Part shown: one piece after another, positions 15,738-28,756 of the stretch
Position numbering within the stretch: position 1 is the stretch's first letter
How the letters are laid out: each line of letters opens with the position of its first letter
DNA from: an uncultured Chloroflexota bacterium
Lineage (GTDB): Bacteria > Chloroflexota > Chloroflexia > Chloroflexales > Chloroflexaceae
DNA length: 32,434 nucleotides
NCBI GenBank assembly: GCA_937120965.1
Contig: CAKZKA010000185.1
Span: 1-32,434 of the forward strand
Direction of reading: 5' to 3'
Notes under the pieces: generated by a model
Told to the model about the DNA's origin: nothing
The model's input: only the letters and a program-made list of their open reading frames with translations
The model's database searches: none
Position numbers and translations under genes: made by a program

Positions 15738-17798
15738 ATGATGCGTATTCGTGGCTGCTGCCCGCACGACTGCGCCGACACCTGCGCCACCATCACCGAG
15801 GTGCAGGAGGGTCAGGCGCTGCGTTTCTACGCCGATCCCGACCATCCGGTGACCCGCGGCTGGTTATGCGCCAAGGTGCGCCCCTACCTCGAGCGGGTCT
15901 ACAGCCCTGACCGGCTGCTCTACCCTTTGCGGCGGGTGGGGCCGAAGGGGGCGGGCCAGTGGGAACGCATCACCTGGGACGAGGCGATTGCCACCATCAC
16001 GGCTCGCTGGCGCGAGATTATCGCCACCTACGGCGCCGCGGCCATTCTGCCCTACTCCTACAGCGGCACCCTGGGCCTGTTGCAGATGGTCATCTGCAAC
16101 CAGCGCCTGTGGAACCGTATGGGCGCCAGCGGATTGGATCGGGCGATCTGTAGCGCGGCGGCACAGGCTGCCGTGGCGGCTACCCTGGGGGCCAGGTATG
16201 GCCCGGATTACGCCGATGTGCTCTACAGTCGCCTGGTAATCCTCTGGGGACATAACCCGGCCAGCACTGCGCCCCATTTCATGCCCTTTCTACGCCAGGC
16301 CCAGAAGCAGGGCGCCTATGTGGTGGTCATTGACCCGCGTCGCACCCTTACCGCTCGCTCGGCTGATGAGCACATTCAGCCGCGACCGGCCACCGATGCG
16401 GCTCTGGCCCTGGGCCTGATGCAGGTGATGTTCAGCGAAGGGCTGCACGACGAGCCCTGGCTGGAAGCGTACAGCCTGGGCTGGCAGGCGCTCCGCGAGC
16501 GGGCCATGCAGTACCCCCCCGAGCGGGCCGCCGCGCTGACCGGCGTCCCCGCCGAGACGATTGTGGCCCTGGCGCGCCGGTATGCTACGACGAAGCCTGC
16601 CCTGCTCAAAACGGCCGATGGCGTGCAACGGCACCAGAACGGCGGGCAGACTTTCCGCGCCCTGTGTTGCCTGCCCGCCGTGGTGGGGCAGTACGGCGTG
16701 CGGGGCGGCGGGCTGGCCTTCTCCACTGGCGGCTATGTCGCCTGGAACGGCGCGGCGGTGGGGCATCACCAGGATTGCCCACCCATGCCGCGCATCGTCA
16801 ATATGAATCGCCTCGGCGCCGCGCTTACCGGCGAGGTGCGCGACCCGCCGATCATGGCCCTCTATGTCTATGGCGCCAACCCGGTGACCTCTGCGCCCAA
16901 CGCCGGCCTGATCGTCCAGGGTCTCTTGCGCGAGGACCTCTTTACGGTGGTCCACGAGCAGTTTCTCACCGACACGGCCCGCTATGCCGACCTGGTGCTG
17001 CCGGCGACGACCCAGCTCGAGCATGTTGACCTGCACACCGCCTACGGGCATCGCTACTTGCAGTACAACCACCCCGCCATTGCGCCCCGCGGCGAGGCCA
17101 GGAGCAACTGGGACGTTATGCGCCTGCTGGCCGCGGGTATGGGCTACACCGAGTCCTGGCTCCACGAGAGCGCCGAGGAAGCCATTCGCGGGGTGATTGA
17201 CGCGACGCGCGCCCGGAACCCGTTCCTTGCCGGGATCACGCTGGAGCGGTTGCAGGCCGAGGGGACGGTGCGCCTGAACCTGGAGGGCGCCGAGGTGCCG
17301 TTCGCCAATGGCGTCTTTCCCACCCCGTCGGGCAAGGTGGAGCTGTACAGCGCAGCGATGGCCGCCCAGGGCCTCGACCCGCTGCCCGACTATGTGGAGC
17401 CGCCGGCCCTGCGCGAGCGGGCCGCGCGCCCCGATGACGAACGCCTGCTGGTCCTGTCGGGCGCGTCGCACCACTTCGTCTCGTCCAGTCTGGCTAACCA
17501 GCCGGGGCTACGGGCAAAGGAAGGCCCGCCGTACATCGAGATCAACCCCGGCGACGCCGCGGCGCGGGGGATCGTCACGGGTGACGAGGTGATGGTGGAA
17601 AATGAGCGGGGCTGGTGTCGCCTGCGCGCCGTTGTAACCGACGATGTGCCTCCCGGCGTTGCCGTGGCTCCCAAGGGCCACTGGGGCAGCCTCTCGCCCG
17701 ACGGGCGCAACATCAACTGGACCACGCCCGACGATCTGGCCGATCTGGCCGGGCAAAGCACCTTTCATACCAACCTGGCGCGGGTGCGGCGGGCGTAA
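15738..17798 (+). CDS. Molybdopterin oxidoreductase, MopB_2-like, with one [4Fe-4S] cluster
   Basis: A 686-residue member of the DMSO reductase superfamily. The N-terminal iron-sulfur site is C8-x3-C12-x3-C16 plus C44, followed by the DHPVTRGWLCAKV motif. The molybdenum-ligand region reads RAICSAAAQAA, making C138 the likely metal ligand. WGHNPASTAPHFM and DPRRTLTARSADEHIQPRP are cofactor-binding motifs. The C-terminal dinucleotide-binding domain (about 565-686) includes SGASHHFVSSSL and GVAVAPKGHWG. No Tat signal is present, so it is cytoplasmic, and no electron-transfer partner is adjacent. It fits the uncharacterised single-subunit group often annotated only as molybdopterin oxidoreductase; the substrate is unknown. 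AGGAG (15727-15731) supports ATG 15738; ATG 15741 is also possible. The TAA stop abuts a 102-bp repeat. Confidence 0.93.
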   Translation: MMRIRGCCPHDCADTCATITEVQEGQALRFYADPDHPVTRGWLCAKVRPYLERVYSPDRLLYPLRRVGPKGAGQWERITWDEAIATITARWREIIATYGAAAILPYSYSGTLGLLQMVICNQRLWNRMGASGLDRAICSAAAQAAVAATLGARYGPDYADVLYSRLVILWGHNPASTAPHFMPFLRQAQKQGAYVVVIDPRRTLTARSADEHIQPRPATDAALALGLMQVMFSEGLHDEPWLEAYSLGWQALRERAMQYPPERAAALTGVPAETIVALARRYATTKPALLKTADGVQRHQNGGQTFRALCCLPAVVGQYGVRGGGLAFSTGGYVAWNGAAVGHHQDCPPMPRIVNMNRLGAALTGEVRDPPIMALYVYGANPVTSAPNAGLIVQGLLREDLFTVVHEQFLTDTARYADLVLPATTQLEHVDLHTAYGHRYLQYNHPAIAPRGEARSNWDVMRLLAAGMGYTESWLHESAEEAIRGVIDATRARNPFLAGITLERLQAEGTVRLNLEGAEVPFANGVFPTPSGKVELYSAAMAAQGLDPLPDYVEPPALRERAARPDDERLLVLSGASHHFVSSSLANQPGLRAKEGPPYIEINPGDAAARGIVTGDEVMVENERGWCRLRAVVTDDVPPGVAVAPKGHWGSLSPDGRNINWTTPDDLADLAGQSTFHTNLARVRRA

Positions 17799-23220: not shown

Positions 23221-23461
23221 CTGAGGTGAACATACGGGGAAACCAGGTTTCCCCACCTGCGGTGAGCCTGTCGAACCGCACCCCTGCCTGTGGGGGCGCC
23301 AGCCGCTCCCAACAGGGGGTGGGCCATGGGGAAACCGGGTTTCCCCACCCCCCTGCCTGTGGGGGCGCCAGCCGCTCCCAACAGGGGTTGGGCCATCGGG
23401 AAACCGGGTTTCCCCACCCCTCTCCCTGAGAGGAGGGTTCGGGAGGGCTACGCCCTCCCAG
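23221..23461. repeat. Composite repeat, copy D, with tandem palindrome units
   Basis: It starts CTGAGGTGAACATA, 9 bases after the paralog 2 stop. Palindromes lie at 23236-23254 (centre A), 23328-23346 and 23397-23415. The last two belong to a tandem unit of 69 bp (GGGGGCGCCAGCCGCTCCCA plus palindrome) that occurs once in copy C. It ends in a GGGAGGGCTACGCCCTCCC hairpin and lacks the TATTTTCATT end of the other copies. It lies between convergent genes. Confidence 0.75.
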
Positions 23462-23509: not shown

Positions 23510-24226
23510 AGCCGTATCCAGCACGCGCCTGAAGGTGTCCATATCACTCTTGAGGTCGCTCAGGCGCTGGGCGATCTCGTCGCTGGCGGGGCTGGCGCTG
23601 ACCACATCGGCGGCGCGCAGGCGCACCGTTTCAGCCAGAACGTTGTCGAGACTGGCCTGGATGTTCTCGAGCTGGGCCTTGATGCGCTCGATGTAGGTCG
23701 TGAGGTCAGCGGCGTTGCGCTGCTTTTCCAGCAGCGTTGCGCGGGTTGCTTCGAGTTGCTGGCGGGTGTAGGGATCGGCCGTGCTGGAGATCTGCCAGTT
23801 GAGTTTCGTGATGCGATCCTCCAGCGCCTGGGGGTTGCTCTGAGCCAGGTAGGCTTCGATTGTCTGGCCGCGCTCGGCCAGGGCGTAGGCCTGCTCGGCC
23901 AGTTCGCGGGTCTGGTCGGTTACGCGGGTGAGCAGGCCGGCCAGGGGCGGGCCGCTCCCGACCACGGTGCGCTCGATTTCGCGTTGCGCGCGTTCGATGG
24001 CGTTGAGTTGAGCGCGGAAGGTTGCGCTGCTCAGGCGTGGCCGCGCGGGTCGCTGGCTGGCGGCGATCACCACCGGGCTGCGCCCGCCAATCAAGACCAT
24101 GGCGCCGTAGGCCAGCAGGCCCAGGGGCAGGAGCCACCAGTAGAGCAGCAGGCCGCTCACAAGAGCGGTGAACAGCACCGTCAGCGCAAGGGGTTGTCGG
24201 GCAGCATAGGCGTAGGCCTGGCGCAT
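23489..24226 (-). CDS. Coiled-coil membrane protein downstream of a solute-binding protein
   Basis: A 245-residue protein with two closely spaced membrane helices near the N-terminus (about 10-30 and 33-55: VLFTALVSGLLLYWWLLPLGLLAYGAMVL in sequence). About 180 mainly helical cytoplasmic residues follow, with heptad patterns (IERAQREIERTVV, RVTDQTRELAEQAYALAERG, YIERIKAQLENIQASLDNVLAETVRLR). Start ATG 24226 is firmly set by AGGAGG 6 bases upstream. It lies 39 bases after the solute-binding protein gene on the same strand, so the two are likely co-transcribed. The helical part recalls scaffold proteins near TelA/XpaC-type genes, but I cannot assign a family. The 3' end merges into a hairpin. 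Confidence 0.82.
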   Translation of the reverse strand: MRQAYAYAARQPLALTVLFTALVSGLLLYWWLLPLGLLAYGAMVLIGGRSPVVIAASQRPARPRLSSATFRAQLNAIERAQREIERTVVGSGPPLAGLLTRVTDQTRELAEQAYALAERGQTIEAYLAQSNPQALEDRITKLNWQISSTADPYTRQQLEATRATLLEKQRNAADLTTYIERIKAQLENIQASLDNVLAETVRLRAADVVSASPASDEIAQRLSDLKSDMDTFRRVLDTAMATAKP

Positions 24227-24265: not shown

Positions 24266-25519
24266 TCACCTGGCCGGGATCAGCGAGCGGATCTCCTGTT
24301 CCCAGACTTCGAGCAGCGCCATCAACACCTCGGTCGAGGGTGACTCGACCGGGGCGGCGACGGTAAGGCTGATGCCATTGCCGGCGTACCGAGCGAAGGG
24401 ATTGGTGGCATCATCGCCACTGATGATCACATCGGGGTCAATAGGTCGAAAGCCGAACTGCAATGCCAGTTCTTGCTGCGGGCGCTGGAGCAAAAAGTCA
24501 CGGAAGCGCCGGGCGGCTTCGCGCTCCTCGCGGCTGGTCAGCGGGGCGTCGAGTATGGCATAGGGATGGTCGCTGAAGATCGTCGCCGGGGGGTAGTAGA
24601 CGCGCAGCGGCTGGTTCCAGCGTTGCTCGGCGCTGGCTATGTATTCAATGGCCAGGTTCTCGTAGACCAGCACGATGTCGTAGCTGCCCGGGCCGAGCTG
24701 GACCATGTTTTGCATCAGCGCGCTGGTGTTTGAGCCGGGGTCGTACACGCCGGCTTCGATGGTCTCAAGCCAGTCCAGGAAATCCAGATCCTCCACATCG
24801 GCAACGCGAAGGCCGGCAGTTTTGTTGTGGAAGGCGTAGACCATGAGCACGAGGGCCTGGGCGCCGCTGTTCGAGGTGAGCGGCGAGGTATGACCGAGTT
24901 TCACCAGGCCCCAGCGGCTGGCCTGTTGTCCTTCAGGAGTATCCGGGCCAGAGCCGCGAGCCCCGGCCACGGCGCTCCAGCCCCTCTCGTCGGCGATAGC
25001 GTCGTGCAGGTCACTCCAGAAACGGGCAGCGCCGTTGGGCCAGAGCAGGCGGGCGCGCTGTTCCCACGCCACGGCGACCAGGGGCGTCAGCGCCAGGGGG
25101 GCCGGCTCGTCGGCGAAGATCCGTTCCCCGGTGAAGGCGGCCCACTCATCGGCGAGCGCGTCAGTCCAGAGGCGACTGGCGGGGCTGATCACCGTGGGGC
25201 GCGGGGCGTAGCTCCAATCCTCGCGGGCGACCCGGTCGGCGATCTCGCCTGATCCCATGCCCACCAGGCGGAGGGTGATTGGACTGATGCCAACGGTTTC
25301 GCCGCGGGCCTGGAAGCGGCGCGCGGCCTCCTCCAGCCAGGCCTGCTTCTCGGTGCTGTACCAGATCACCACTTCGACCGGTGTGACCCGTGGGCCGATG
25401 CCCACATCAACCGGCGCATAGCCGAGCAGCCCGGGCAGCGGTACCAGCAACCGGAGCGCCAGGGCGATGAGGCAGCAGGCGAGAAAACCCATCCCAACCG
25501 CGCGGTAAAGAAATGGCAT
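24266..25519 (-). CDS. Extracellular solute-binding protein, membrane-anchored
   Basis: A 417-residue protein with an N-terminal hydrophobic anchor (about 7-27, FLACCLIALALRLLVPLPGLL) followed by an ABC-type periplasmic-binding fold. Family-like segments include VVIWYSTEKQAWLEEAARRF, PTVISPASRLW, WGLVKLGHTSPLTSNSGAQAL, GSYDIVLVYENLAIEY, YYPPATIFSDHPYAIL and REAARRFRDFLLQRPQQELALQFGFRP. This matches the SBP_bac_11-type proteins that often carry or accompany a VWA domain; no VWA domain is present here. The cysteines at 15-16 do not make a clean lipobox. ATG 25519 has TTGAGG 5 bases before it. No permease or ATPase is nearby, so it may not be a transport component. Confidence 0.85.
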   Translation of the reverse strand: MPFLYRAVGMGFLACCLIALALRLLVPLPGLLGYAPVDVGIGPRVTPVEVVIWYSTEKQAWLEEAARRFQARGETVGISPITLRLVGMGSGEIADRVAREDWSYAPRPTVISPASRLWTDALADEWAAFTGERIFADEPAPLALTPLVAVAWEQRARLLWPNGAARFWSDLHDAIADERGWSAVAGARGSGPDTPEGQQASRWGLVKLGHTSPLTSNSGAQALVLMVYAFHNKTAGLRVADVEDLDFLDWLETIEAGVYDPGSNTSALMQNMVQLGPGSYDIVLVYENLAIEYIASAEQRWNQPLRVYYPPATIFSDHPYAILDAPLTSREEREAARRFRDFLLQRPQQELALQFGFRPIDPDVIISGDDATNPFARYAGNGISLTVAAPVESPSTEVLMALLEVWEQEIRSLIPAR

Positions 25520-25810
25520 ATGAGCCTCAACAGTAAAGCCGAGCGCCTGGAGACAGCCCGGAGCCACTTCTATTCTAGCCCAGGGGAGGAACCGGGGGAA
25601 GAGGCAGAGGCGAGGATGGGCCACGCGGTAGAGCCGATCCCGGCAGTGTGCGGCGCAGCTCCACGGAGATCTGACCCGAAACGTCGTGGATAGTCGCCGT
25701 TTCATCACCCGGCGGGAGCCGTAGATTAACGGCAGCCGGCGGGCGCCGCTATATACTACGGCAAGTGTTGGGATTATGCAGTACAGCTTGCTGGGAAGGC
25801 GAGGTGGCGT
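25520..25810. other. Divergent intergenic region between solute-binding and radical SAM genes
   Basis: It holds a candidate minus-strand -10, TAGAAT (plus 25572-25577), for the solute-binding gene and a plus-strand -10, TATACT (25752-25757), for the radical SAM gene. Neither has a convincing -35. The phrase CAGTGTGCGGCGCAGCTCCA near 25645 is a remnant of the right end of the composite repeat. There is no gene. Confidence 0.4.
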
Positions 25811-27064
25811 ATGGGAACTCTTCCGAGCGCATGGGCCGAAGTAGACGCGGAGGGCCGGCTGGTTATCCCGCCGGAACTGGCCGCGCGCCTGGGGCTTGAG
25901 CCTGGCGCCCAGGTGCGTCTGGAGGTCGGCGCGAACGACCTGCGCCTTCATCGCCCCGTCACCCACCTCAACAAGGTGTACATCGAACCAACGAACCTCT
26001 GCAACATCGCCTGTCGCACCTGCATGCGCAATAGCTGGGAAGTTGACGAAGGGCGGATGAGTGAGGCGACCTTCGCCCGCGTCCTGGAAGGGCTGGGTGC
26101 GCTCACGCCGCCGCCCTCGGTCTTCTTCGGCGGTATCGGCGAACCGCTGGCCCACCCGCGGATCATCGAAATGGTGGCGCAGGTCAAGGCGCTGGGCGCC
26201 TGGACCGAGCTGATCACCAACGGCACGCTGCTCGACGAGCGGCGCGCCCGCGGGCTGATCGCCGCGGGCCTCGATGTGTTGTGGGTTTCGATTGACGGGG
26301 CCACGCCCGAGAGCTACGCCGACGTGCGGCTCGGCGCGGAGTTGCCCCGGGTGCTGGCGAATATGGCGCGCTTCCGCCAGTTGCGCCCGGCCGGGCACCA
26401 CGCCAAACCCGAGATGGGGATCAACTTCGTGGCCATGCGGCGCAATATCGCCGACCTGCCCACGGTGATCGCCACCGGGCGGCGGCTCGGCGCAACGCGC
26501 TTTATGGTCAGCAACGTGTTACCCTACACCGCCGAGCTGTGCGACGAGGTGCTCTACAACCGCACATTGCGCGACATCACCTATCTGCCCTCGGCGTGGC
26601 TGCCGCGGCTGAGTTTCCCCAAGATGGATCTGAACGACGACACCGAGGAAGCCTTCCTGCGCGCCCTGCGCAGCGGCGCTAACGTCACTTTCGCCGGCAA
26701 CAACCTGGGTGGGGCCAACGACGTGTGTACCTTCATCGAGCACGGCTCGATGACCGTCGGCTGGAACGGGAACGTCAGCCCGTGCCCGCCGTTACTCTAC
26801 GACCACGTCAGTTACCTGCACCGTCGCCAGCGCATGTCGTACCGGCACATCATCGGCAACCTGGCCGAGCGCGATCTGCTCGACCTGTGGAACGATCCCG
26901 AGTACGTGGCCTACCGCCAGCGGGTGCAAACCTTTGCCTTCGCGCCCTGCACCGCCTGCGGCGGCTGCGATCTGTCGGAGGCCAACCTGGAGGATTGTCT
27001 GGGCAACGAGTTCCCGGTGTGCGGCGGCTGCCTGTGGGCCCAGGCGGTGATTCAGTGCCCGTAA
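25811..27064 (+). CDS. Radical SAM/SPASM enzyme with N-terminal AbrB-like domain
   Basis: A 417-residue protein. Residues 6-48 (AWAEVDAEGRLVIPPELAARLGL...) form an AbrB/MazE-type swapped-hairpin domain. The radical SAM core follows, with C64-x3-C68-x2-C71 (IEPTNLCNIACRTCMRNSW), the GGIGEPLAHP SAM motif and ITNGTLL. The C-terminal region has nine cysteines (306, 325, 380, 383, 386, 396, 404, 407, 416), enough for two auxiliary [4Fe-4S] clusters of SPASM type. Architecture and sequence resemble the maturases normally encoded beside tungsten-containing aldehyde oxidoreductases. That identification is from memory of the family, and no such oxidoreductase is in this window. ATG 25811 has GGCGAGG about 6 bases upstream. 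The TAA stop is one base from a composite repeat. Confidence 0.88.
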   Translation: MGTLPSAWAEVDAEGRLVIPPELAARLGLEPGAQVRLEVGANDLRLHRPVTHLNKVYIEPTNLCNIACRTCMRNSWEVDEGRMSEATFARVLEGLGALTPPPSVFFGGIGEPLAHPRIIEMVAQVKALGAWTELITNGTLLDERRARGLIAAGLDVLWVSIDGATPESYADVRLGAELPRVLANMARFRQLRPAGHHAKPEMGINFVAMRRNIADLPTVIATGRRLGATRFMVSNVLPYTAELCDEVLYNRTLRDITYLPSAWLPRLSFPKMDLNDDTEEAFLRALRSGANVTFAGNNLGGANDVCTFIEHGSMTVGWNGNVSPCPPLLYDHVSYLHRRQRMSYRHIIGNLAERDLLDLWNDPEYVAYRQRVQTFAFAPCTACGGCDLSEANLEDCLGNEFPVCGGCLWAQAVIQCP

Positions 27065-27065
27065 C

Positions 27066-27210
27066 CTGAGGTGAAAATAGTCCCCGCGCGGGAGGGTTTG
27101 GGAGGGCACAGCCCTCCCAGGAAACAACCCGCCCGCGGGGAGGGTTTGGGAGGGCGAAGCCCTCCCAAGAATAATTATTTTCATTCCGGCGTTGTGCGGC
27201 GCAGCCGCAT
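27066..27210. repeat. Composite intergenic repeat, copy E
   Basis: It begins CTGAGGTGAAAATA one base after the radical SAM stop. It contains two GGGAGGGTTTGGGAGGGC modules, each with its GCCCTCCC partner, and ends TATTTTCATTCCGG and GTGCGGCGCAGCCGCAT. A second, abortive start, CTGAGGTGAAACT, follows at 27216. It is the cleanest copy after B. The remaining bases to 27337 carry a possible -10, TACAAT (27269-27274), for the next gene. Confidence 0.75.
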
Positions 27211-27337
27211 AGATGCCTGAGGTGAAACTGCGCCAGGTCTCCGTGGCGGCGGCTGCGGCGGGGTATGCTACAATCTCTGCCGTCAGAATAATGGTTCGTG
27301 CCGCTGCCACGCGGCTGCCGACAAAGGAGTCCTGGCC

Positions 27338-28756
27338 ATGACCGAGAGCTTCCGGATCGAGAAAGACTCGCTCGGCGAGATGCAGGTGCCGGCCAACGCC
27401 CTGTATGGCGCGCAGACGCAGCGCGCCGTACTCAACTTCCCCGTCTCCGGAATGAAGCCCTACCCGGCCTTTGTATGGGCTCAGGGGGTAATCAAGCGGG
27501 CCGCTGCCGAGGTGAACCGCGACCTGGGCCTGCTCGAGGCGCGCCTGGCCGACGCGATTATTCAGGCTGCCGACGAGGTGCTTGCCGGCAAGCACGCCGA
27601 CCAGTTTGTGGTCGACCCCTTCCAGGCGGGCGCGGGTACGTCGCACAATATGAACCTCAACGAGGTCATCGCCAACCGCGCCAACCAGATCCTCGGCTTC
27701 GCCCTCGACGACCCCAACAAACCGGTCAGCCCGAACGACCACGTGAACATGGCCCAGTCCACCAACGACACCATTCCGACCGCCATCCGGCTGGGGTGTC
27801 TCTGGCGGATTGATGAGCTGCTGGCGGCGATTGACGGCCTGGCTGACGCGCTGGAGGCCAAGGCTCAGGAGTTTGACGACGTGGTGAAGTCGGGGCGCAC
27901 GCACCTGCAAGACGCGGTGCCGGTGCGCCTGGGGCAGGAGTTCGGGGCCTACGCCCTGGCGGTGCGGAACGACCGCGAGCGCATTGCCACTGCCGCCGAG
28001 CGCATGCGCCGGCTGGGTATCGGCGGCACTGCCACCGGCACCGGGCTGAACGCCCATCCCGAGTACCATCAACGTATGGTCGAGACGCTCAGCAGGCTCA
28101 CCGGTCAGAGCCTGCGGAGTTCGGGCAATCTGTTCGAGAGTATGCAGAGCATGGCCGACCCGGCCGACTTCTCCGCGGCAATGCGTACCCTCTGCATTAC
28201 TCTGACACGGATCGCCAACGACTTCCGCCTGCTCTCCTCGGGACCGGCCACGGGCCTCGATGAGATCCGCCTGCCGGCAGTGCAACCCGGGTCGAGCATT
28301 ATGCCCGGCAAGGTCAACCCGGTGCTGGCCGAGATGCTCAACATGGCCTGCTTCCACGTGCAGGGCTGCGATCTCACGGTGAGCCTGGCGGCGCAGGCGG
28401 GGCAACTCGAGCTGAACGTGATGATGCCGATCATCGCCCACAACCTTTTCGAGATGATGCACGTGTTAATCGGGGCGATCAACGCCTTTACGACGAAGTG
28501 CGTGGTGGGCATTACCGCCAATCGCGAGAAGGCCGAGGGCTGGCTGGCCAAGAACGCCATTCTGGTGACGGCGCTCAATCCGGTGATCGGCTACCTGAAC
28601 GGCGCCGCGGTGGCCAAGGAGGCCATGGCCACGGGCAAGACGATCAAAGAGGTGGTTGTCGAGAAGGGCCTGCTCAGCGCCGAAGAGGTGGACCGGCTCA
28701 TCGACGCTCGCAAGATGACCGAGGGCGGTATTCAGGGCATTGCCGCCGCAGGCTAG
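27338..28756 (+). CDS. Aspartase/class II fumarase family lyase, probably aspartate ammonia-lyase
   Basis: A 472-residue homotetrameric lyase that interconverts fumarate with aspartate plus ammonia, or with malate. AGAGTSHNMNLNEVIANRA, PNDHVNMAQSTNDTIPTA, SGRTHLQDAVPVRLGQEF and GTGLNAHPEY are present. The superfamily signature GSSIMPGKVNPV lies at 318-329, with the catalytic serine loop. Two details favour aspartase over fumarase: NPV rather than NPT after the signature, and AGQLELNVMMPI rather than the GNFELNVF of fumarases. Still, some Chloroflexota fumarases may share them, so substrate is not settled. AAAGGAGT 7 bases before ATG 27338 is the best ribosome-binding site in the window. A 14-bp hairpin terminator follows. 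Confidence 0.92.
   Translation: MTESFRIEKDSLGEMQVPANALYGAQTQRAVLNFPVSGMKPYPAFVWAQGVIKRAAAEVNRDLGLLEARLADAIIQAADEVLAGKHADQFVVDPFQAGAGTSHNMNLNEVIANRANQILGFALDDPNKPVSPNDHVNMAQSTNDTIPTAIRLGCLWRIDELLAAIDGLADALEAKAQEFDDVVKSGRTHLQDAVPVRLGQEFGAYALAVRNDRERIATAAERMRRLGIGGTATGTGLNAHPEYHQRMVETLSRLTGQSLRSSGNLFESMQSMADPADFSAAMRTLCITLTRIANDFRLLSSGPATGLDEIRLPAVQPGSSIMPGKVNPVLAEMLNMACFHVQGCDLTVSLAAQAGQLELNVMMPIIAHNLFEMMHVLIGAINAFTTKCVVGITANREKAEGWLAKNAILVTALNPVIGYLNGAAVAKEAMATGKTIKEVVVEKGLLSAEEVDRLIDARKMTEGGIQGIAAAG

Follow-up and report, generated by a model that had tools for sequence, protein, structure and literature searches.

The window protein (P0001) is read here as a radical SAM/SPASM maturase for an AOR1-type tungsten aldehyde oxidoreductase (AOR), acting in trans, with its target enzyme encoded at another place in the genome, with a probability of roughly 0.58. 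The window is the whole 32,434-nucleotide stretch of DNA analyzed, which is the entire contig C185 in a 307-contig assembly of its own genome (G000). This reading is based on the domains and conserved cysteines of the protein, the family-wide link to AOR genes, an AOR1 start with its neighboring genes in the same genome, and purifying selection. In the proposed mechanism, the C64/C68/C71 cluster would cleave AdoMet to give a 5'-deoxyadenosyl radical, while the SPASM domain would hold auxiliary Fe-S clusters. The radical would then change a putative target, either AOR1 as apoprotein or the pterin cofactor of AOR1, and the AbrB-like N-terminus would act as a dimerization or docking module.

Domain architecture and family placement

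The window gene is an ordinary, functional gene in a subfamily beside the known tungsten-AOR maturases (Table 1). Its dN/dS is 0.054 against the same-genus orthologue of G004 and 0.072 against that of G002, so it is no chance ORF, and within its genus the gene is under purifying selection. Between positions 24000 and 29000, no RNA element was matched by Rfam at gathering scores. At 23236–23418 of the window, a GC-rich intergenic repeat is made up of a 69-nt tandem whose palindromic arms are of the GGGGAAACC type. A roughly 140-bp repeat element, also GC-rich and intergenic, has at least tens of matches per genome in G002–G004; no copies of one G002 intergenic element were found in the window, with a query stretch that may be badly placed.

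Table 1 Features of the window discussed in the text, with positions counted from its first nucleotide.
Feature	Positions	Strand	Basis
Maturase, AbrB-like/radical SAM/SPASM, 417 aa	25811..27064	+	Intact ORF (ATG at 25811, stop ending at 27064); Pfam; homologues 96, 94, 86 and 81% identical (full length or nearly)
AbrB/MazE-like N-terminal domain, residues 8–52	25832..25966	+	PF04014 at residues 12–49; structure model
Radical SAM core, residues 58–191, C64-X3-C68-X2-C71	25982..26383	+	PF04055; conserved cysteines
SPASM domain and cysteine-rich tail, residues 306–417, nine cysteines	26726..27061	+	PF13186; conserved cysteines
Solute-binding protein, upstream neighbor; its start is one edge of the G003 empty site	24269..25519	-	PF13531; synteny
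Class II fumarase (fumC), downstream neighbor; other edge of the G003 empty site	27338..28756	+	PF00206, PF10415; synteny
DMSO-reductase-type molybdopterin oxidoreductase, not AOR	15738..17798	+	PF00384, PF01568, PF04879

The original prediction of an AbrB-radical SAM-SPASM fusion with nine C-terminal cysteines is borne out by the ORF, the Pfam matches and the conservation of the cysteines. Radical_SAM scores 55 bits (cut-off 29.5) at residues 58–191, and SPASM scores 47.9 bits (cut-off 21.5) at residues 306–386. In a 104-sequence alignment that includes the window protein, two incomplete sequences and three identical pairs, the triad C64/C68/C71 is Cys in 103 to 104 rows, and each of the nine C-terminal cysteines (C306, C325, C380, C383, C386, C396, C404, C407 and C416) is Cys in 102 to 104. 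The SPASM-type radical SAM motif is present, with the CX3CX2C triad followed by C306-X13-G320-X4-C325, which fits the pattern CX(9–15)GX4C, and a CX2C-rich tail, whose cysteine spacing we take to be unlike the canonical seven-cysteine SPASM motif. The structure model, for which 21 sequences were used, reaches a mean pLDDT of 80.7, and its best PDB matches by Foldseek are SuiB, DesII, BlsE, anSME and PqqE, with SkfB also among the top.

Kinship with tungsten-AOR maturases, as originally suggested, stands in part. The best curated (NCBIfam) model is TIGR04317 W_rSAM_matur (tungsten cofactor oxidoreductase radical SAM maturase), matched over its full length at E 1.4e-81 (residues 52–417 on model positions 2–349 of 349), and the family shows an association with AOR genes. 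Membership did not hold: the score of 274.4 bits lies below the curated cut-off of 380, and we therefore place the window protein in a sister subfamily. Two relatives, L101 (60% identical, 287 bits) and L110 (46%, 274 bits), also fall below this cut-off, and L080 (36% identical), which adjoins an AOR gene, passes it at 402 bits. No protein of G000 other than P0001 resembles TIGR04317 strongly; the next, at 62.6 bits, is the mycofactocin protein MftC. A tree built by a quick method from 103 homologues, with SH-aLRT supports, groups the window protein with those of G002 and G004 (support 99), then with the AOR1-linked proteins of G051 and G032 (99), and then with L156 and L157 (95).

The N-terminus carries the motif VDxxGRLVIPxEL..LGL.PG. 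PF04014 (MazE/AbrB) matches residues 12–49 at 21.7 bits in the whole protein, against a cut-off of 24.7, and at 28.5 bits in the isolated N-terminus (first 60 residues; 29 bits in a second run). Of 26 family N-termini searched, 18 match the same model with E values of 0.01 or lower. In the structure model, this region has a helix with two short strands before it and another two strands after it, with pLDDT mostly 74–87. A profile of the N-termini matches AbrB and SpoVT structures weakly (E about 0.08–0.15), among others such as Ufd1, and all its PDB matches have E 0.03 or worse. In a set of at least 80 homologous loci named from the GTDB collection, many of them short, the match begins at query residue 1–10 in 79 of the 80 listed; the exception is L232 (residue 32). 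Judged by these alignments, the region N-terminal to the TIGR04317-modeled part belongs to the subfamily, and the AbrB-like part recurs through it. The fusion had been called rare, a description that finds no support here: beyond this recurrence and the at least 80 named loci, a clear homologue occurs in 24 of 400 genomes from the phylum. Among six distant homologues, Pfam finds nothing in the first 45–46 residues of L076, L077, L080 and L107, and a PF04014 match below its cut-off in those of L075 and L078.

An N-terminus that binds DNA, with the protein regulating itself or the transcription of AOR1, would fit the PF04014 match and the weak profile matches to AbrB and SpoVT. It is also compatible with the charge of the N-termini, which are net positive in 48 of 88 relatives (median +1, range −3 to +3; 16 of the 104 sequences were dropped where the motif was not found). 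However, AbrB residues K9, R15, R23 and R24, which we take to be of the DNA-contact type, align with E10, R16, A24 and A25 of the window protein, so that only R15 is kept; acidic side chains outnumber basic ones by 7 to 5 in residues 1–52, and the net charge across the family is small. Charge decides nothing alone, since 48 of the 88 relatives are net positive. DNA binding by the AbrB-like part appears unlikely, transcriptional control of this kind is highly improbable, and a role in dimerization or docking is the one we would prefer.

A probable AOR1 in the window's genome, and the linkage of AOR1 to the maturase

The original prediction saw no AOR adjacent to the gene and no visible partner. 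A tblastn search of the window with an AOR query agrees with the former, giving nothing above 60 bits and no AOR1 remnant beside the gene. The molybdopterin enzyme of the window does lie 8 kb away on the same strand, as had been stated; given its type (Table 1) and this distance, we rejected it as the partner. The partner is absent from the window and apparently not from the genome: the impression of a missing partner arose because one contig of a fragmented assembly was viewed. G000 does have an AOR-family gene, AOR2, which is split in two, with one part at an end of contig C242 and the other at an end of C87; it also has 11 codons of an AOR1-like start on contig C154.

A protein search for AOR1 in G000 did not find it. 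The DNA upstream of AOR1 in the same-genus genome G002 matches G000 C154:31730–33088 at 85%, and C154 breaks off after the first 11 codons of an ORF, MNLGGFANRIA, that is identical to the AOR1 start at 9 of 11 positions. The MoaD-like gene downstream of G002 AOR1 matches G000 C176:20085–20506. C176 ends about 117 nt before the start of this MoaD-like gene, with a DUF1952 gene next, and the distance from the end of AOR1 to the MoaD-like gene in G002 is about 115 nt. Because of the 11 codons and the synteny on both sides, AOR1 followed by the MoaD-like and DUF1952 genes is probably present in G000. From these contig ends, the most likely account is that G000 AOR1, presumably a complete gene, was lost in an assembly gap, with the maturase elsewhere in the genome. 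Pieces of AOR1 likewise sit at contig ends in the same-genus genomes G001, G002, G003 and G004. In G002, the maturase lies about 195 kb from an AOR1 piece on one contig, and in the window's genus the maturase is unlinked to AOR1.

AOR2 is unlikely to be the cognate partner: a similar-scoring AOR occurs in many maturase-less genomes of the order, and same-genus AOR2 pieces are 27–37% identical to AOR1. The second outcome that the original prediction named as refuting, an AOR gene paired with its own maturase elsewhere in the genome, did not turn up in G000.

A mycofactocin cluster lies immediately before the AOR1 start (L145, G000 C154:17000–33356), and this flank is shared by L147 (G002) and L152 (G003). 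Over their cut-offs are MftC (617 bits), MftF (426), MftE (180) and one OYE-type oxidoreductase; MftM-like and ETF-beta-like genes score below theirs, and the MftF gene adjoins AOR1 upstream. We count the position of AOR1 directly behind this cluster against the main reading.

Outside the genus, the closest relatives are G051 (86% identical) and G032 (81%). Both carry AOR1, DUF1952 and the maturase in this order on one strand, and the maturase follows AOR1 by 348 nt in G051 and 427 nt in G032. Within the 80 named loci listed, AOR1 is found within 8 kb in 37 and a thioredoxin-like gene within 1.5 kb in 11; none has both and 32 have neither. Of the listed loci, 41 have 4 kb or more of flank on each side; among these, 24 have AOR1, 7 a thioredoxin-like gene and 10 neither. 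A MoaD-like gene, whose product ends in GG, lies within 6 kb of the maturase in 39 of the 80 and DUF1952 in 22.

Co-occurrence extends to the phylum. Thirty of the 400 sampled genomes match P0001 at E 1e-25 or better. Six weak matches were set aside (best E 4.8e-26 to 9.3e-28, starting at residues 35–56 and ending by 252), leaving 24 clear homologues at E 2.3e-44 or better. An AFOR_C gene is present in all 24 genomes with a clear homologue versus 154 of the 376 others (178 of 400 overall; Fisher p 1.4e-9, in a test that ignores kinship, with 13 of the 24 genomes coming from one family, f13). One of the six weak-match genomes (G306) has an AFOR_C match. The best homologue in several of the 24 is 37–49% identical and has no AOR1 beside it. 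Among 61 relatives, all five maturase genomes have AOR1 or its start (p 0.001).

DUF1952 (PF09189) recurs beside AOR1 and its MoaD-like gene, in L095, L096, L098, L099, L101, L103, L104, L081, L087, L091 and L144; two of these proteins were assigned by Pfam, and the others were grouped by BLAST or by eye (L144). L156 (74% identical) offers a third neighborhood (L156:5691–9254), where the genes preceding it encode an archaeal-type AdoMet synthetase (PF01941) and a further radical SAM protein. No AOR1 was found near it within the 8 and 4 kb of flank.

AOR1 without the maturase, and maturase homologues in arsenic-type operons

AOR1 is more widespread than the maturase. Seventeen of the 61 relatives have it (G000–G004, G007, G011, G017, G022, G026, G028, G029, G032, G036, G051, G056 and G060), a count that leaves out an AOR of G059 (376 bits) and includes an AOR1-protein fragment search of 8 of the 61 genomes. 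The maturase is found at E 1e-40 in 5 of these 17 and was not found in 12, including the same-genus G001 and G003; some of the 12 are incomplete drafts, and G003 is 99% complete. The G003 site is empty (L236, C8), with 291 bp between the flanking matches versus 1721 bp in the window (25520–27241), so that presence and absence of the maturase alternate within one genus at the interval between the solute-binding protein and fumC. Because 12 of 17 relatives are without the maturase and the G003 site is empty, AOR1 can evidently exist without it. AOR1 may do without the maturase or use something else, and the action of the maturase may be conditional, redundant or directed at something else.

The empty site in G003, together with the failure to find the gene in G001, would also suit a passing relic in this genus, its AOR1 link lost and the gene disappearing. 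This is scarcely probable, as the gene is full length, and the three same-genus copies have dN/dS of 0.054–0.094 and 94–96% protein identity.

A comparison of 38 maturase-linked AOR1 sequences with 10 from maturase-less genomes, the latter 72–88% identical to G051 AOR1, found no column that separates the two exclusively. Seven columns pass a loose threshold. A diagnostic, possibly modified AOR1 residue was rejected as a candidate on these counts, the nearest being His95 and Val143 (each 38 of 38 versus 3 of 10).

Other maturase homologues lie in arsenic-type operons, which counts against the main reading, as do the 10 well-flanked loci with neither AOR1 nor a thioredoxin-like gene. The locus L177:2262–7804 encodes ArsR, an ArsP permease, the maturase, an ArsE-family thioredoxin-like protein, an ACR3 arsenite efflux protein (TIGR00832, 463 bits) and VKOR. 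At L163:5180–10592, ArsR-like (by tblastn), GcvH-like, DGC-domain and OsmC-like genes accompany the maturase, a thioredoxin-like gene and ACR3. Partial layouts of this type occur at L159, L161, L164, L167, L168, L171, L172, L173, L226, L110 and L112. Scoring ACR3, ArsP and thioredoxin-like genes within 6 kb as arsenic-type, the 80 named loci listed divide into 36 with AOR1 only, 14 with an arsenic-type gene only, 1 with both and 29 with neither. In 8 of the 11 listed loci with a thioredoxin-like gene near, it stands 21–63 nt from the maturase. The 6 kb around the window gene gave no arsenic-type gene. On the tree, homologues linked to AOR and those linked to thioredoxin or arsenic genes are interspersed, and the AOR label changes 6 times, which is fewer than the shuffled mean of 15.

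This setting suggests that the chemistry is perhaps broader than tungsten. We put forward, tentatively and at well under even odds, a family in which an AbrB-derived N-terminus turned from a DNA reader into a docking or dimerization module and the maturase swaps neighbors for two tasks of related chemistry: completing a tungsten AOR in some lineages, and modifying an arsenic-operon thioredoxin-like or OsmC-like protein in others. Somewhat less likely, the modified partner would be a small protein rather than AOR. At AOR loci this would be the MoaD-like or DUF1952 protein, at arsenic loci an ArsE-like thioredoxin or an OsmC-like protein, and the AbrB-like part would recognize it. MoaD-like and DUF1952 genes follow the maturase in many AOR loci, the thioredoxin-like gene is tightly coupled to it in arsenic loci, and the top Foldseek matches include the peptide and protein maturases SuiB, anSME, SkfB and PqqE, all of which speak for such a partner. 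Yet five inspected maturase-less AOR1 loci keep a MoaD-like gene near AOR1 in 5 of 5 cases and DUF1952 in 2 of 5, and no single small partner recurs in every context.

The intermingling in the tree, with its several context changes, and the single listed locus with both AOR1 and an arsenic-type gene would also agree with a generalist that carries out a thiol or metal-oxyanion handling step common to tungsten and arsenic systems. We consider this improbable for the window protein, whose gene has no arsenic-type neighbor within 6 kb, whose nearest relatives outside the genus are AOR1-linked, and whose clear homologues in the phylum are accompanied by AOR in 24 of 24 genomes. A maturase acting in trans on AOR1 is the reading we prefer.

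How AOR-family tungsten enzymes acquire a functional cofactor is little understood, and the radical SAM gene found beside some of them has so far had no more than a proposed role. This subfamily provides a natural comparison, with similar AOR1 enzymes with and without the maturase, even in one genus, that amount to natural knock-outs. The effect of the maturase on AOR is directly testable because similar AOR1 enzymes occur in both states and the empty site is at the same place. We rate the overall interest as moderate; it lies in these knock-outs, the recurrent AbrB-like module and the arsenic-operon context.

Comparison with known systems

Literature searches on the TIGR04317 names, on DUF1952 and on the AbrB, radical SAM and SPASM arrangement returned nothing relevant. 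Kletzin et al. are said to have described, in 1995, a 'cmo' gene beside aor of Pyrococcus. Term searches found no 'radical SAM' in PMC12096430 and no 'radical' in PMC9246946. In a study of the Aromatoleum AOR operon, the MoaD-like aorD and aorE are putative maturation factors (PMC6365974). A classification of tungsten oxidoreductases gives WorX a supposed role in processing the pterin cofactor, and leaves out SAM-like and ThiS genes as probably belonging to pterin biosynthesis (PMC13328260).

The closest parallel in gene arrangement is the Thermococcus kodakarensis cluster tk1066 (AOR), tk1065 (MoaD family) and tk1064 (radical SAM), where AOR, MoaD-family and radical SAM genes are likewise together; the likeness considered here is one of gene arrangement. 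In contrast to that cluster, the maturase of the window's genome is unlinked, and DUF1952 is an extra member of the AOR1 cluster. The T. kodakarensis radical SAM enzyme, it has been suggested, might take part in AOR cofactor maturation (PMC11323500).

With TIGR04317 proteins, the window protein shares its best curated match and, in its close relatives, a nearby AOR gene. It differs in that its own gene is not near an AOR, its score is below the cut-off and an AbrB/MazE-like N-terminus precedes the modeled part; L080, which passes the model, also has ~45 residues before this part, but without a Pfam match there.

The SPASM peptide and protein maturases SuiB, anSME, SkfB and PqqE combine a radical SAM core with SPASM as the window protein does (SuiB 5v1s, E 2.5e-12, TM 0.54), but Foldseek identities are 14–20% and the N-terminus here is AbrB-like. 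This N-terminus is presumably not of the RRE type, unlike that of SPASM peptide maturases, and we know of no precursor peptide for the window protein. With the swapped-hairpin domains of AbrB, SpoVT and MazE, the N-terminus has the motif in common, and PF04014 matches 18 of 26 N-termini of the family, but its key basic residues are replaced and it is fused to an enzyme.
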